Shown here: positions 37,768-43,184 of the stretch, piece after piece
Layout: each line of letters starts with the position of its first letter
Numbering within the stretch: the stretch's first letter is position 1
Translations under genes and position numbers: made by a program
The notes under the pieces: generated by a model
Seen by the model: the letters and a program-made list of their open reading frames with translations, nothing else
Databases searched by the model: none
What the model was told of the DNA's origin: nothing
NCBI RefSeq assembly: GCF_023746535.1
Contig: NZ_CP098747.1
Location: 2,006,501-2,070,500, forward strand
Direction of reading: 5' to 3'
Origin: Sneathiella marina
GTDB taxonomy: Bacteria > Pseudomonadota > Alphaproteobacteria > Sneathiellales > Sneathiellaceae
DNA: 64,000 bases

Positions 37768-37794
37768 ATGGGATTACCTAAGGGAGAAATTGAG

Positions 37795-38226
37795 ATGTTG
37801 CTTAACAAAGGATTATTTTTCGCTGCTGTTGTTTCTCTTTCATTGTTGGCATCGAAAGCCTATGCGGATGTTACTGGAACCTGGTCAACGGTAGAAGGTA
37901 AGAGCCACGTTAAGATTGAGCCGTGTGGAGACAAGTTTTGCGGTAAGATAGTTTGGTTAAAAGAACCAAACAACGCAGAAGGAAAACCAAAAAAAGATAT
38001 AAATAATACAGATGAAGCCCTGAGGGGCAGGCCAATTCTCGGAATGGAGTTATTGAACGGTTTTTCACCTGAATCAAAAACGGAATGGGATGACGGTACC
38101 ATTTACAATCCGGAAGATGGAAAAACATATAGCTCGACTTTGACAATAGCAAAATCGGGGGAGCTTGAAGTCGAAGGTTGTGTGCTGTTTATATGTAAAA
38201 CGCAGGTTTGGAAAAAGGTAGAGTGA
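37795..38226 (+). CDS. DUF2147 secreted protein
   Basis: 143 residues from ATG 37795, behind GGGAG with about eight bases spacing; an earlier in-frame ATG at 37768 has no such site. A signal peptide (LLNKGLFFAAVVSLSLLASKAYA) is followed by the DUF2147 domain: VTGTWSTVEGKSHVKIEPCGDKFCGKIVWL, a Cys pair, then GRPILGMELLNGF, WDDGTIYNPEDGKTYSSTL and a final CVLFICKTQVW. The beta-barrel-like domain is periplasmic and of unknown function, often linked to envelope or stress. It lies between the SDR gene and the Pho box of ppk1. Confidence 0.82.
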   Translation: MLLNKGLFFAAVVSLSLLASKAYADVTGTWSTVEGKSHVKIEPCGDKFCGKIVWLKEPNNAEGKPKKDINNTDEALRGRPILGMELLNGFSPESKTEWDDGTIYNPEDGKTYSSTLTIAKSGELEVEGCVLFICKTQVWKKVE

Positions 38227-38279: not shown

Positions 38280-38314
38280 TTGTCATAAAACTGTGACATA
38301 TTGATTGGTATCGT
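38280..38314 (+). promoter_or_regulatory. Pho box and -10 element of ppk1
   Basis: TTGTCAT-AAAA-CTGTGAC (38280-38297) is two 7-bp direct repeats separated by four bases, close to the PhoB consensus CTGTCAT-AAAT-CTGTCAC (one mismatch in each repeat). A possible -10, TATCGT (38309-38314), follows 11 bases after the box, where PhoB-activated promoters have theirs. The predicted transcript starts just before ATG 38340, which also argues against the in-frame TTG at 38301. Phosphate-starvation control of polyphosphate synthesis is the inference. Confidence 0.65.
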
Positions 38315-38339
38315 ATGGGAAGAGCAGTTTTTACGGGAA

Positions 38340-40499
38340 ATGGGAATGGCTTCATCGGTCGATATGGCATCAGAAAGTCCTGAGCCGGAAATTTTGATGG
38401 AAAGTAAAGAGCGGTTTATTAACCGTGAATTATCGTGGCTTTCCTTCAATGACCGCGTCCTTCAAGAGGGCGCGAACACGGCTCATCCTTTATTGGAAAG
38501 ACTACGGTTTTTATCTATTTCTGCGGCAAATCTTGATGAATTTTATATGGTGCGCGTCGCTGGCCTTTGGGGCCAAATCAGAGCGCATGTCAAAACACTC
38601 AGTGACGATGGACTGACGCCGATCCAGCAACTGGAGAAAGTGGACCAGAAGGCAAAAACTCTAATCAAAGAGCAACAAGTTCAATGGAAGAATTTGCTTG
38701 TCGAACTTCGCAATGCCGGTGTTTCTGTCATAACACCAGATGAGCTTAATAAAGAAGACCTGCAGTGGCTTAAAGGGCATTTCGAAACCCAGATATATCC
38801 TATCCTGACACCTATGGCACTGGATCCAGCGCATCCGTTCCCCTTTATTCAAAATTTAGGCTTTGGAATGTTTCTGGAACTGGTCCGGAAAAATGACGAG
38901 CGTAAACTCAAGGCTCTACTCTTGTTACCACAAACGCTGGACAGATTTACTCGATTACCCGGAGAAGAGGTTAGATACATAAGTGTTGAAAATATTGTGA
39001 CACTGTTTTTGGGTCATTTCTTCCCTGGATATACTGTTGCCGGTCAAGGCCTGTTCCGTCTGGTACGAGACAGCGATATCGAAGTTGAAGAAGAGGCAGA
39101 GGATTTGGTTCGTCTGTTCGAGACGGCCCTTAAACGCCGGCGAAGGGGAAGTGTTATAAGGCTTAAAGTAGACGTGGAAATGCCTCAGTCCTTTATTGAT
39201 TTCCTGGTTGCTGAGCTGGATTTGGACCGTCGGGCGATTGTTGTTGTTGATGGGTTGTTGGGATTGTCAGACACAGCAAATTTAATTACAGACGAGCGAC
39301 CAGACCTTTGTTTCACACCACATACACCGCGATATCCTGAGCGCGTACGCCAAACCGGCGGAGATATTTTTGCAGCGATAAGCAACAAAGATATTATTGT
39401 GCATCATCCCTATGAAAGTTTTGATGCCGTCGTTCATTTCATTCGTCAGGCAGCAGCCGACCCTGATGTAATTGCCATTAAGCATACGCTTTACCGCACG
39501 TCCACAAACAGCCCTGTCGTGAGTGCATTGATAGAAGCGGCCGAAACAGGAAAATCTGTAACAGTTCTGATTGAGTTGAAAGCACGATTTGATGAAGCAG
39601 CGAATATTAAATGGGCGCGGGATTTGGAGCGTGCTGGGGCACAGGTCATATACGGTTTTATAGATCTTAAAACACATTCGAAGGTTTCGGCGGTAGTAAG
39701 AAGAGAGGGTAAAGCCCTTAAAACTTATATGCATTTTGGGACTGGAAACTATCATCCGGTCAATGCGCTTGTGTATTCCGATCTGTCGCTTTTTACAGCA
39801 GACGCTCAGTTGGCGAAAGATGTTTCATTGATGTTTAACTACATTACGGGATATGCAAAACCAAAAGGACTCACCAAACTCGTTCTATCGCCATACAGTC
39901 TGCGCGATTCTTTGATTGAAATGATTGAGGATGAAATTGAATTTGCCAAACAAGGGAAACCGGCCAGTGTTTGGGCGAAACTAAATTCGCTTGTCGACCC
40001 GAAAATAATCGACACGTTATATAAAGCGAGCAATGCCGGAGTAGAGATCAGATTGGTCATTCGCGGTATTTGTTGCCTGAGACCTGGTATAAAAGGATTG
40101 TCTGAAAATATCTATGTAACAAGTATTGTTGGAAGGTTTCTTGAACATTCTCGTATTGTTTGCTTTGGAGCCGGGCGCAAACTGCCATCACCGGAGGCAA
40201 AAGTGTTTATTTCCTCCGCAGACTGGATGCAAAGAAATTTTGATCGACGGGTAGAGACTCTGGTCCCAGTTACCAATACAACCGTGCATCTGCAAGTCTT
40301 GGATCAAATCATGGTTGCTTGCTTAAAAGACACAGCTCAAAGTTGGCGTTTGACCAAAAATGGCGACTATCAGCGGGTTGAGGGCGGGAAAAAGCCTTTT
40401 TCAGCTCATAATTATTTTATGACCAACCCGTCTTTGTCTGGACGCGGTAAGGCATTGCGGGTAAAGGAACCTGTACCCAAACTTGTTCCCCCAAGTTGA
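38340..40499 (+). CDS. ppk1: Polyphosphate kinase 1
   Basis: 719 residues from ATG 38340. Domains in order: N-terminal FINRELSWLSFNDRVLQEG, then ANLDEFYMVRVAGL, the head domain, and two C-terminal catalytic domains. The phosphorylated-His candidate is His446 in DLKTHSKVSAVVRREG, and a second conserved His lies in LEHSRIVCFGAG. KHTLYRTS and HFGTGNYHP are ATP-site motifs. It reversibly makes inorganic polyphosphate from ATP and is membrane-associated in most bacteria. It is followed by ppx after 29 bases, so synthesis and breakdown are likely co-transcribed under a Pho box. Confidence 0.96.
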   Translation: MGMASSVDMASESPEPEILMESKERFINRELSWLSFNDRVLQEGANTAHPLLERLRFLSISAANLDEFYMVRVAGLWGQIRAHVKTLSDDGLTPIQQLEKVDQKAKTLIKEQQVQWKNLLVELRNAGVSVITPDELNKEDLQWLKGHFETQIYPILTPMALDPAHPFPFIQNLGFGMFLELVRKNDERKLKALLLLPQTLDRFTRLPGEEVRYISVENIVTLFLGHFFPGYTVAGQGLFRLVRDSDIEVEEEAEDLVRLFETALKRRRRGSVIRLKVDVEMPQSFIDFLVAELDLDRRAIVVVDGLLGLSDTANLITDERPDLCFTPHTPRYPERVRQTGGDIFAAISNKDIIVHHPYESFDAVVHFIRQAAADPDVIAIKHTLYRTSTNSPVVSALIEAAETGKSVTVLIELKARFDEAANIKWARDLERAGAQVIYGFIDLKTHSKVSAVVRREGKALKTYMHFGTGNYHPVNALVYSDLSLFTADAQLAKDVSLMFNYITGYAKPKGLTKLVLSPYSLRDSLIEMIEDEIEFAKQGKPASVWAKLNSLVDPKIIDTLYKASNAGVEIRLVIRGICCLRPGIKGLSENIYVTSIVGRFLEHSRIVCFGAGRKLPSPEAKVFISSADWMQRNFDRRVETLVPVTNTTVHLQVLDQIMVACLKDTAQSWRLTKNGDYQRVEGGKKPFSAHNYFMTNPSLSGRGKALRVKEPVPKLVPPS

Positions 40500-40528
40500 T
40501 ATTGACCCTTGTTATGCTTTAGGTGCTG

Positions 40529-42049
40529 ATGAAAATGGAAGATCGGGACAGAGACTTAGATCCGGCTGTAAAACAGTCGGATAGATCAACTGCGGTCATT
40601 GATATTGGTTCAAACTCTGTTCGGTTAGTGGTCTTCGATGGGCCAAAGAGGGTACCTCTACCCAAATTTAATGAAAAAGTACTTTGCGGGCTGGGGCAGG
40701 ATCTGGGAACGACCGGGCTTCTCGGTCAGGGAGCCATGGATGATGCAATAACTGCCCTTCGTCGATATTCAGCCTTGGTCAACCAAATGGGTATAGAACG
40801 GGTTATGGTTGCTGCTACGGCCGCCGTGCGGGAGGCTCAAAATGGATCAGAATTTGTATCGGAAATTGAGCAAGAATGCGACCTTAACGTTCAGGTTCTC
40901 AGCGGTAAACAAGAAGCAAGATATGCTGGATTGGGTGTCTTGTCCGGGATACCTCATGCCAATGGCATCGTTGGTGATTTGGGCGGGGGTAGTTTAGAAC
41001 TTGTCGGCTTATCTGACAGTCATATTTCGGAAACTGCCACTTTGCCCCTGGGTGCACTGCGCTTGTCAAATATGCATATGTCAGAAAAGAGACTGAGAAA
41101 AGAGATCACTAAAAAAATCACCGCCGTTGATTGGCTGGAGCCCATTCCAACCAAGAATTTTTATGTGGTTGGTGGTGGTTGGCGAAGTCTGGCGAAATAC
41201 CATATTGCGAAAACAGGGTATCCCCTGAATATTGTGCATAATTACAGATTGTCTTTACCCGATATTCTTGATCTGCTGGATGAAGTGCTCGCTATGGATG
41301 ATGACATGATGGTGTCCACGCCAGGCATAGCCAAGAGCCGTGCAGGAACATTGAAAACCTCCGCCCTTATCATGCAAATTATTTTGAATAAAATCACACC
41401 AAAACATGTCATTTTCTCAGGAAATGGCCTCCGCGAAGGTATGCTTTTTTCAGAATTGAAAAAATCTGTTCGAAAACGCGATCCACTTATGGAAGCGTGC
41501 CGGGATATGGCAGCCCGGGAAGGCCGGTTCGCAGAGCATGGTGAAGAGATTTATGAATGGATTAAGGATCTAGTTGAACATGCTGATGTAAAAGGAAACT
41601 ATTTGGCTTTGGCCGCGGCAACGTTAAGTGATATCGCGTGGTGGGTAAGCCCTGATTATCGTGCAGCACAAGCCTTCAGAAGAATATTTCGGGCACCGTT
41701 CAATGGGATTGGACATCGTGGACGCGCAATTGTCGCTCTTGCGGTATATGCACGATATCGAGGTAATTTTTCAGGCAGTGCGCCGGATAACAGTCTGGCA
41801 TTGTTAAGTGAATCTGAAGCCAAGGACGCTTTGACGCTCGGCCTAGCTCTGCGTCTTTCTCATACTCTAAGCGGCGGTACAATGGGCATTTTAAGTCGTA
41901 CAAATCTTCGTGTCTTACCCACAGAGCTAATTTTGGAAGTCCCGGAGGATTTGTCAAATTTACTTGGAGTCCATGTATCCAGTCGACTGAGAATCCTGGC
42001 GGATGCCTTTGGAAAAACATCCAGGATTGATGTTATTACAGGTGAATAA
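40529..42049 (+). CDS. ppx: Exopolyphosphatase / guanosine pentaphosphatase (Ppx/GppA)
   Basis: 506 residues from ATG 40529 (TTAGG upstream). It belongs to the ASKHA fold: VIDIGSNSVRLVVFDG is the phosphate-1 motif, ATAAVREAQNG and VGDLGGGSLELVG follow, and the C-terminal HD-like helical domain contains LVEHADVKGNYLALAAATLSDIAWW. Ppx/GppA hydrolyses terminal phosphates of polyphosphate and, in some, pppGpp. It is downstream of ppk1 in the same direction. The last 14 bases overlap the 3' end of the convergent rnd gene. Confidence 0.93.
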   Translation: MKMEDRDRDLDPAVKQSDRSTAVIDIGSNSVRLVVFDGPKRVPLPKFNEKVLCGLGQDLGTTGLLGQGAMDDAITALRRYSALVNQMGIERVMVAATAAVREAQNGSEFVSEIEQECDLNVQVLSGKQEARYAGLGVLSGIPHANGIVGDLGGGSLELVGLSDSHISETATLPLGALRLSNMHMSEKRLRKEITKKITAVDWLEPIPTKNFYVVGGGWRSLAKYHIAKTGYPLNIVHNYRLSLPDILDLLDEVLAMDDDMMVSTPGIAKSRAGTLKTSALIMQIILNKITPKHVIFSGNGLREGMLFSELKKSVRKRDPLMEACRDMAAREGRFAEHGEEIYEWIKDLVEHADVKGNYLALAAATLSDIAWWVSPDYRAAQAFRRIFRAPFNGIGHRGRAIVALAVYARYRGNFSGSAPDNSLALLSESEAKDALTLGLALRLSHTLSGGTMGILSRTNLRVLPTELILEVPEDLSNLLGVHVSSRLRILADAFGKTSRIDVITGE

Positions 42050-43184
42050 TCTTTATTTTTCCGGATTCCGATGCGAGCGCAATTTTCCCTTTTTTAAGTT
42101 GAAGGGCTAGATCACCAAAAACTTTTCTACGCCAGCCTTTAAGGGCAGGGACATCTGCATTGTCGTCAATAGCGATTTTTTCCAAATCCGCCGTATTGCA
42201 GATAAGTTTCTGTGCTACGTCATTTTCTTCGCAACATTGCTTCAAAACCACTCTTAATAAATCCATGAGAGGGCCGGTACCTTTTGGTAACGCTTCCTTT
42301 TTTGTTATCTTCGGGCATTGTTCCGCAGGCAGGTTCACACCCTTTTTTATGGCTTCAAGCAAGCCATGTCCCATATTTCCATTGGAAAATCTTTGCCCAA
42401 TTCCACGTACATGAGATAATTTTTCAGGCGAGGAGGGAGGGTTTGAGGCGATTTCCAGAAGGGCCTCATCCTTCAATACCCTGTTTCGCGGTATATTCTG
42501 TTTATGTGCCTGTTCCTCTCGCCATCCAGCAACAGATTGCAGTATTCCCAAAAATTTCGGATGCGAATTGCGGGACTTTATGCGCTTCCAGGCATTTTCC
42601 GGAGGTGTGAAATAGGTGTCGGCCGATCGCAGGATCTCCATTTCCGACTGAACCCACTCTTCGCGCCCTGATTTCGTCAATTCTGCTGCCAGAAATTTAT
42701 AAACGTCCCTCAGATACGTGACATCGGCTTCGGCATAGGTTAGTTGCTTCTCGGAAAGAGGGCGCCTTGACCAATCAGTAAAACGAGACGATTTATCGAT
42801 TGATTTACCTACAATTTTTGACACCAATGTGTCATATCCAACAGACTCGCCGAAACCGCAGACCATGGCGGCGACTTGCGTGTCAAATATTGGCGTTGGA
42901 ACCATGCCGTTTAAATGATAGAAAATTTCCAGATCCTGGCGACCTGCATGAAAGATCTTTAGGACCGTTTCATCCTGCATTAACTCAAAGAGCGGCTTAA
43001 GATCTATTCCATCTGCCAATGGATCAATTATTGCAGATTCATCCTCACTGGCGATCTGAATAAGACACAGAACAGGCCAAAACGTACTTTCCCTCAAAAA
43101 CTCTGTATCGATCGTAATATGGGGAAATTGTTTCAGTCGCGATACAAGGGCAGAGAGATCGGAAGTTGTCGTGATTATTTGCAT
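42036..43184 (-). CDS. rnd: Ribonuclease D
   Basis: A 382-residue 3'-5' exonuclease with the DEDD core: TIDTEFLRE (Asp26, Glu28), FHAGRQDLEIF, and AEADVTYLRDVY near residues 150-165. One HRDC-like domain is visible (SVAGWREEQAHKQNIPRNRVLKDEALLEIA, then a second, weaker one near the C-terminus). It trims the 3' ends of tRNA precursors and other stable RNAs. It is convergent with ppx with a 14-base overlap and divergent from aspS. Confidence 0.93.
   Translation of the reverse strand: MQIITTTSDLSALVSRLKQFPHITIDTEFLRESTFWPVLCLIQIASEDESAIIDPLADGIDLKPLFELMQDETVLKIFHAGRQDLEIFYHLNGMVPTPIFDTQVAAMVCGFGESVGYDTLVSKIVGKSIDKSSRFTDWSRRPLSEKQLTYAEADVTYLRDVYKFLAAELTKSGREEWVQSEMEILRSADTYFTPPENAWKRIKSRNSHPKFLGILQSVAGWREEQAHKQNIPRNRVLKDEALLEIASNPPSSPEKLSHVRGIGQRFSNGNMGHGLLEAIKKGVNLPAEQCPKITKKEALPKGTGPLMDLLRVVLKQCCEENDVAQKLICNTADLEKIAIDDNADVPALKGWRRKVFGDLALQLKKGKIALASESGKIKIIHL

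Follow-up and report, generated by a model that had tools for sequence, protein, structure and literature searches.

The ppk1 gene of Sneathiella marina is preceded by a short repeat resembling a Pho box, which raises the question of whether PhoB controls polyphosphate metabolism at this locus. The stretch of DNA analyzed (64,000 nucleotides, hereafter the window) belongs to a single-contig genome of 4.07 Mb. The candidate box, TTGTCAT-AAAA-CTGTGAC, occupies positions 38280–38297 of the forward strand and consists of two 7-bp half sites in direct repeat, 11 bp apart from start to start, each differing at one position from CTGTCAY. A probable -10 element follows the box at 11 nt, as at PhoB-activated promoters, where the distance is about 10–11 nt. 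A preliminary description of this DNA had proposed a Pho box whose position would let it drive ppk1, together with the ppx-like gene 23 nt behind it. The sequence, coordinates, spacing and TATCGT hexamer that it gave are exact to the base, its count of one mismatch per half site agrees with the sequence, and the proposal itself is very probably correct on the sequence evidence presented here. The features are listed in Table 1.

Table 1. Features of the ppk1–ppx promoter region and genes (positions within the window).
Feature	Position	Strand	Remarks
Upstream PhoB half site TTGTCAT	38280–38286	+	Same base in all 19 genus sites at columns 3, 4, 6, 8 and 9
Spacer AAAA	38287–38290	+	AA at 38287–38288 conserved
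Downstream half site CTGTGAC	38291–38297	+	G at 38295
Probable -10 element TATCGT	38309–38314	+	Read from the sequence; 11 nt past the box
ppk1, polyphosphate kinase 1	38340 or 38346 to 40499	+	NF003919, 1176.8 bits (cut-off 908)
ppx-like gene	40523–42049	+	TIGR03706 exopolyphosphatase, 286 bits, just below cut-off (307)

The product of ppk1 shares 82% identity with that of a Sneathiella sp., 72% with that of Sneathiella chinensis and 71% with that of S. glossodoripedis. The ppx-like gene probably belongs to one operon with ppk1 and would be co-transcribed with it. On its upstream side ppk1 is preceded by an hda-like gene, an SDR gene and a small open reading frame (37768–38226), all three read in its own direction; the open reading frame had no match in an NCBIfam search, and we take it to be DUF2147. 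A GGGA motif at 38335–38338 ends 1 nt before the ATG at 38340 and 7 nt before the in-frame ATG at 38346. The suggestion that the promoter fixes the ppk1 start at 38340 goes too far and is not supported: a TTG start at 38301 is ruled out, but the promoter does not discriminate between the two ATG codons.

The box against the window, the genome and the genus

A plain consensus match by itself would hardly make the ppk1 box stand out. With up to three mismatches to the bare consensus, the window contains 12 matches where 7.2 would be expected (a count of 12 is reached by 8 of 100 shuffles), and the box is one of two sites with only two mismatches. Across the whole genome it is the sole place within one mismatch of YTGTCATAANNCTGTCAY, but this uniqueness proves little, since the pattern was composed after the site was already known and a looser version (Y for C at position 12) has four places within one mismatch.

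Scoring with outside data gave a different picture. We used a PhoB weight matrix built from the 59 E. coli ChIP-seq site sequences in Table 1 of PMC10294691. The ppk1 box scores 18.2 bits. Among the 127,966 window positions, both strands counted, it ranks first, and set against the 59 E. coli sites scored leave-one-out it comes at about the 90th percentile. Within the same genome it falls between the pstS box (21.8 bits) and the ugpB box (15.5 bits). The runner-up in the window, at 42819–42836 (+, 16.0 bits), lies inside rnd on the opposite strand and is probably inert.

In 20 of the 24 genus genomes the region upstream of ppk1 could be read (19 loci plus G004); of the other four, three have no ppk1 match (G006, G010, G016) and one holds the gene end only (G017). 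The element is found in 19 of these 20 genomes. In 18 of the 20 real regions, at least 12 of the 13 positions of the genus pattern are matched, compared to 0.03 of 20 for dinucleotide shuffles, a figure to be read with the fact that the pattern was derived from the regions it scored. The E. coli matrix is independent of those regions, and it also selects the element, as the best forward-strand site in 19 of 20. Scores range from 9.2 bits, near the bottom tenth of the E. coli sites, to the 18.2 bits of the window, with the other genus sites at 9.2 to 15.2 bits. Columns 3, 4, 6, 8, 9, 16 and 17 each hold a single base throughout the 19 sites, while the flanks vary. A TA follows at columns 29–30 (T in 17/19, A in 18/19), so that the -10 element stands at a near-constant 10 nt past the box. 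The promoter geometry claimed in the preliminary description is thus borne out, with the window site as the spacing outlier of the genus (11 nt instead of 10). We regard the ppk1 box as real because of its top matrix rank, and its conservation in the genus settles the point.

The single exception is G007 (locus L019), whose ppk1 upstream region lacks the element, although a match to pstS and, on two contigs, fragments of phoB are present in this genome. G016 (about 94% complete) has no ppk1 match, though it has a match to pstS and a PhoB that exceeds the cut-off. Only one other genus of the family was searched; at its locus L020 the best score was 11 of 14.

PhoB, other Pho promoters and the downstream half site

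The genome contains the gene row phoR-pstS-pstC-pstA-pstB-phoU-phoB. By NCBIfam, phoR (331.0 bits, cut-off 334.2) and pstS (141.7 bits, cut-off 206.6) fall below their cut-offs and the remaining genes of the cluster lie above theirs; pstS is above its Pfam cut-off. PhoB scores 334.3 bits against a family cut-off of 296.2, which is exceeded in 19 of the 24 genus genomes, this one included. Twenty consecutive residues are identical between this PhoB and the DNA-binding domain of E. coli PhoB (1gxp), a stretch that is presumably the DNA-recognition helix.

Two other promoters of the genus provide a reference for the ppk1 layout. At pstS, 19 of 22 loci read YTGTAAC-N4-(C/G)TGTCAT with TA exactly 10 nt on (the remaining three did not fit the reading pattern). 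At ugpB, all 18 loci read (C/T/G)TGTCAT-N4 followed by a second half ending in GTCAT or GTAAT, and after an 11-nt gap A occupies the second place of the -10 element in 18/18. With a gap of 10–11 nt in all three, the box-to-minus-10 layout of ppk1 is that of pstS and ugpB.

Several further observations were made on Pho-box-like sites in the genus. The half sites of the pstS promoter (L117 and others among L100–L120) number up to four, set in an 11-bp register, and one of them overlaps the spacer before the -10 element. Near-perfect Pho boxes (e.g., TTGTCATAAAACTGTCAT) occur 67–170 nt before a gene in four genomes (box position about 1501 in L167, L175 and L184, about 941 in L169). By eye, this gene encodes an M20-type amidohydrolase, which to our knowledge is not a known Pho gene. 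In three genomes (L173, L176, L178), CTGTCATATGTCTGTCAT lies 66–88 nt before a gene that, again by eye, encodes a LivH-type permease. A strict Pho-box pattern gave 33 matches in the genus against 15 for the reversed pattern, and these matches are to be taken as leads only.

The downstream half of the ppk1 box has a feature absent from the preliminary description. Column 16 is G in all 19 genus ppk1 boxes, whereas it is C in 19/19 pstS boxes and C (13) or A (5) in the 18 ugpB boxes; G thus occurs in none of the 37 pstS and ugpB boxes, and C or A in all 37. Among the 59 E. coli sites, 58 have C or A at this column and one, amn, has G. The second half of the amn site, CTGTGAC, is letter for letter that of the window, and amn is bound by PhoB, with its RNA falling significantly in a phoB deletion, from 42,299 to 12,429 (PMC10294691). 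The CTGTGAC half is therefore compatible with PhoB control, and a GTCA or GTAA core in the downstream half is usual, not defining, for Pho boxes. The ppk1 box of Pelagibius (L302, CTGTCATCATTCGGTGAC) likewise has G at column 16, which suggests that the variant extends beyond this genus. Fixation of this variant throughout the genus asks for an explanation. The exact genus pattern has 29 matches in the 24 genomes, 13 of them before ppk1; the 16 found elsewhere compare to 17 for the reversed control, and no second target emerged from this search.

One conceivable explanation is that the ppk1 promoter is a hybrid operator, with a near-perfect PhoB half and a half fixed off consensus by selection (WGAY, with invariant G-A) that either detunes PhoB, so that the polyphosphate genes are induced late and follow the uptake genes, or is read by a second regulator. 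We put this forward as a possibility, and a doubtful one. If it were true, the second regulator might be tied to the cytoplasmic-phosphate pathway that acts on ppk1 in Caulobacter. The fixed odd half also offers a direct test of whether half-site quality orders the switching of phosphate genes.

Occurrence across Alphaproteobacteria

Beyond the genus, 35 of 144 other Alphaproteobacteria among the matches listed have a PhoB-like site before ppk1, and 109 have none at that level, the threshold being the lower quartile of the E. coli sites. Controls gave 7 for the reverse strand and, for shuffles, a mean of 0.8 and a maximum of 3. A TA follows these non-genus sites most commonly at 10 nt (9/35). 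The scan of orthologous upstream regions that the preliminary description had proposed as a check was accordingly positive, both here and within the genus.

The plain consensus (14 positions, at least 12 matched) was scored in two parts of the sample, which agree: 17/71 and 15/73 among the matches listed. The first set combines 60 non-genus rows among the matches listed with 11 further loci, and the second is the 76 non-genus loci minus 3 exact duplicates. Both sets are nonrandom, only exact duplicates were removed, and some genera are repeated; one locus, L236, is from the Caulobacter-like family described below. The reversed pattern gave 3/71 and 0/73, the reverse strand 1/71 and 0/73, and shuffles 0.2 in each set. 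Counted by family, the first set gave 15/56.

A recurring spacer that was not seen in the genus turns up in several other families, where GTCATGAC or CCATGAC makes up the first half and spacer of the ppk1 box (L193, L206, L216, L217, L220, L229, L025).

None of 29 ppk1 upstream regions from a Caulobacter-like family (f57) reaches the PhoB-matrix level; at a lower level of 9.33 bits, 1/29 does, compared to 2/29 on the reverse strand. The 29 regions come from 30 loci of 60 genomes, L282 having been dropped because its match begins inside the protein. The holdfast protein HfaD scored above cut-off in three genomes, all of f57, and among 14 named controls in Caulobacter vibrioides only; from these matches we infer that f57 is Caulobacteraceae. 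The lack of a box in this family fits the reported PhoB-independence of Caulobacter ppk1. These results suggest a class map in which many lineages have a PhoB-like site before ppk1 and the Caulobacter-like family, at the level tested, has none. Comparing the two groups would be a natural way to find what governs ppk1 in the Caulobacter-like family.

Proposed control of ppk1–ppx, alternative explanations and known systems

The element is likely a PhoB box, placed where an activator site usually lies, in a ppk1–ppx promoter. This reading is favored by its matrix score, its conservation, the layout it shares with pstS and ugpB, the presence of the phoR-to-phoB gene row, the E. coli-like recognition stretch of PhoB, the PhoB-like sites before ppk1 in 35 of the 144 other Alphaproteobacteria, and the PhoB-bound amn site with its identical downstream half. 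We infer PhoB binding, activation, co-transcription and their physiological role from sequence, as follows. At low external phosphate, the phosphorylated form of PhoB would occupy the two half sites, spaced 11 bp apart, as a head-to-tail pair, substituting for an absent -35 element and bringing RNA polymerase to the -10 element about 10–11 nt downstream, and ppk1 and ppx would rise together when phosphate is short. The combination of a near-consensus upstream half with a fixed variant downstream half may mean that PhoB acts on ppk1 more weakly, and perhaps later, than on pstS. Cells would then stock the kinase during starvation, such that returning phosphate could be banked as polyphosphate. 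Points that we count against PhoB are the fixed G16, the absence of the element from G007, the 109 of 144 Alphaproteobacteria with no site at that level, the low scores of some genus sites and the 11/14 of L020, together with two literature findings discussed below, the PhoB-independence of Caulobacter ppk1 and an E. coli ppk that is not bound.

The main rival to PhoB is a different activator at the same position, which we consider unlikely. It could be another OmpR-family regulator or a reader of a GTCA-N8-TGAC inverted repeat, with the likeness to a Pho box coming from shared promoter ancestry or from a binding mode common to the family. The inverted repeat came into consideration because G16 and A17 are both invariant, which is not what the PhoB boxes of the genus keep. 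Candidates for such a regulator exist, as the PhoB family search gave 26 places in the genome, mostly other response regulators, and ppk1 of Caulobacter is phosphate-controlled without PhoB (PMC11208175). However, the TAA that is conserved behind the first half lacks a mirror-image counterpart, and the E. coli PhoB matrix selects the ppk1 element in nearly every genus region; both observations count against this rival and weaken the inverted repeat. Nor is there a sign of a regulon apart from ppk1 in the 24 genomes, the exact genus pattern outside ppk1 being matched by its reversed control.

It is very improbable that PhoB binds here and matters little, ppk1 being transcribed mainly by read-through from upstream or from another promoter. 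The stretch from the end of the open reading frame at 38226 to ppk1 showed no terminator-like site, and many PhoB sites in E. coli are reported to have no effect on transcription (PMC10294691), but the near-constant spacing of box and -10 element in the genus, and the same preference for TA at 10 nt in other families, count against this reading. Chance resemblance without function is scarcely credible: a consensus match with two mismatches is not rare in 64 kb, but this one has the highest PhoB-matrix score of the window and persists in 19 of 20 genus genomes amid variable flanks, which is the very conservation that refutes chance.

Returning to PhoB control as the preferred explanation, Pho boxes before ppk have reportedly been found in Klebsiella, Acinetobacter and Vibrio. 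For most bacteria, a review of the Pho regulon describes induction of Ppk for phosphate storage when phosphate is limiting (PMC4415409). In Sinorhizobium meliloti, ppk stands in a list treated as phoB-dependent (PMC3596328), and another paper has ppk rising along with pho genes (PMC10315480). Given the review and these papers, co-induction of ppk1 by low phosphate is neither new nor counter-intuitive, as the preliminary description had called it. Among the titles and abstract openings listed by a search of open-licence PMC, with queries that did not include the genus name, none concerned a ppk1 Pho box in Sneathiella.

Compared to known promoters, the ppk1 element resembles those of E. coli phoA, pstS, ugpB and amn in its 7-bp halves placed 11 bp apart and its high matrix score, and differs from E. 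coli PhoB sites in the G16 that is rare there and fixed here. It is like pstS and ugpB of its own genus in the distance to the -10 element (10 nt in pstS, 11 nt in ugpB); in those two, column 16 of the downstream half is C or A, and pstS has extra half sites in register. The E. coli ppk and ppx genes likewise share one operon (PMC3163519), but ppk is outside the 65 PhoB-bound regions and has no occurrences in the text of the ChIP-seq paper (PMC10294691). In Caulobacter crescentus, ppk1 is also induced by phosphate starvation but lies outside the PhoB regulon and follows cytoplasmic phosphate (PMC11208175). Since Caulobacter ppk1 is required for recovery from phosphate starvation (PMC13250506), loading cells with the kinase during starvation would have a ready reason. 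The likeness to S. meliloti ppk lies in the phoB-dependence listed for that gene (PMC3596328). A PhoB-type switch before ppk1 is thus of a kind already known in bacteria, to which this alphaproteobacterial genus adds a well-supported candidate, with PhoB as the putative regulator of its polyphosphate genes.
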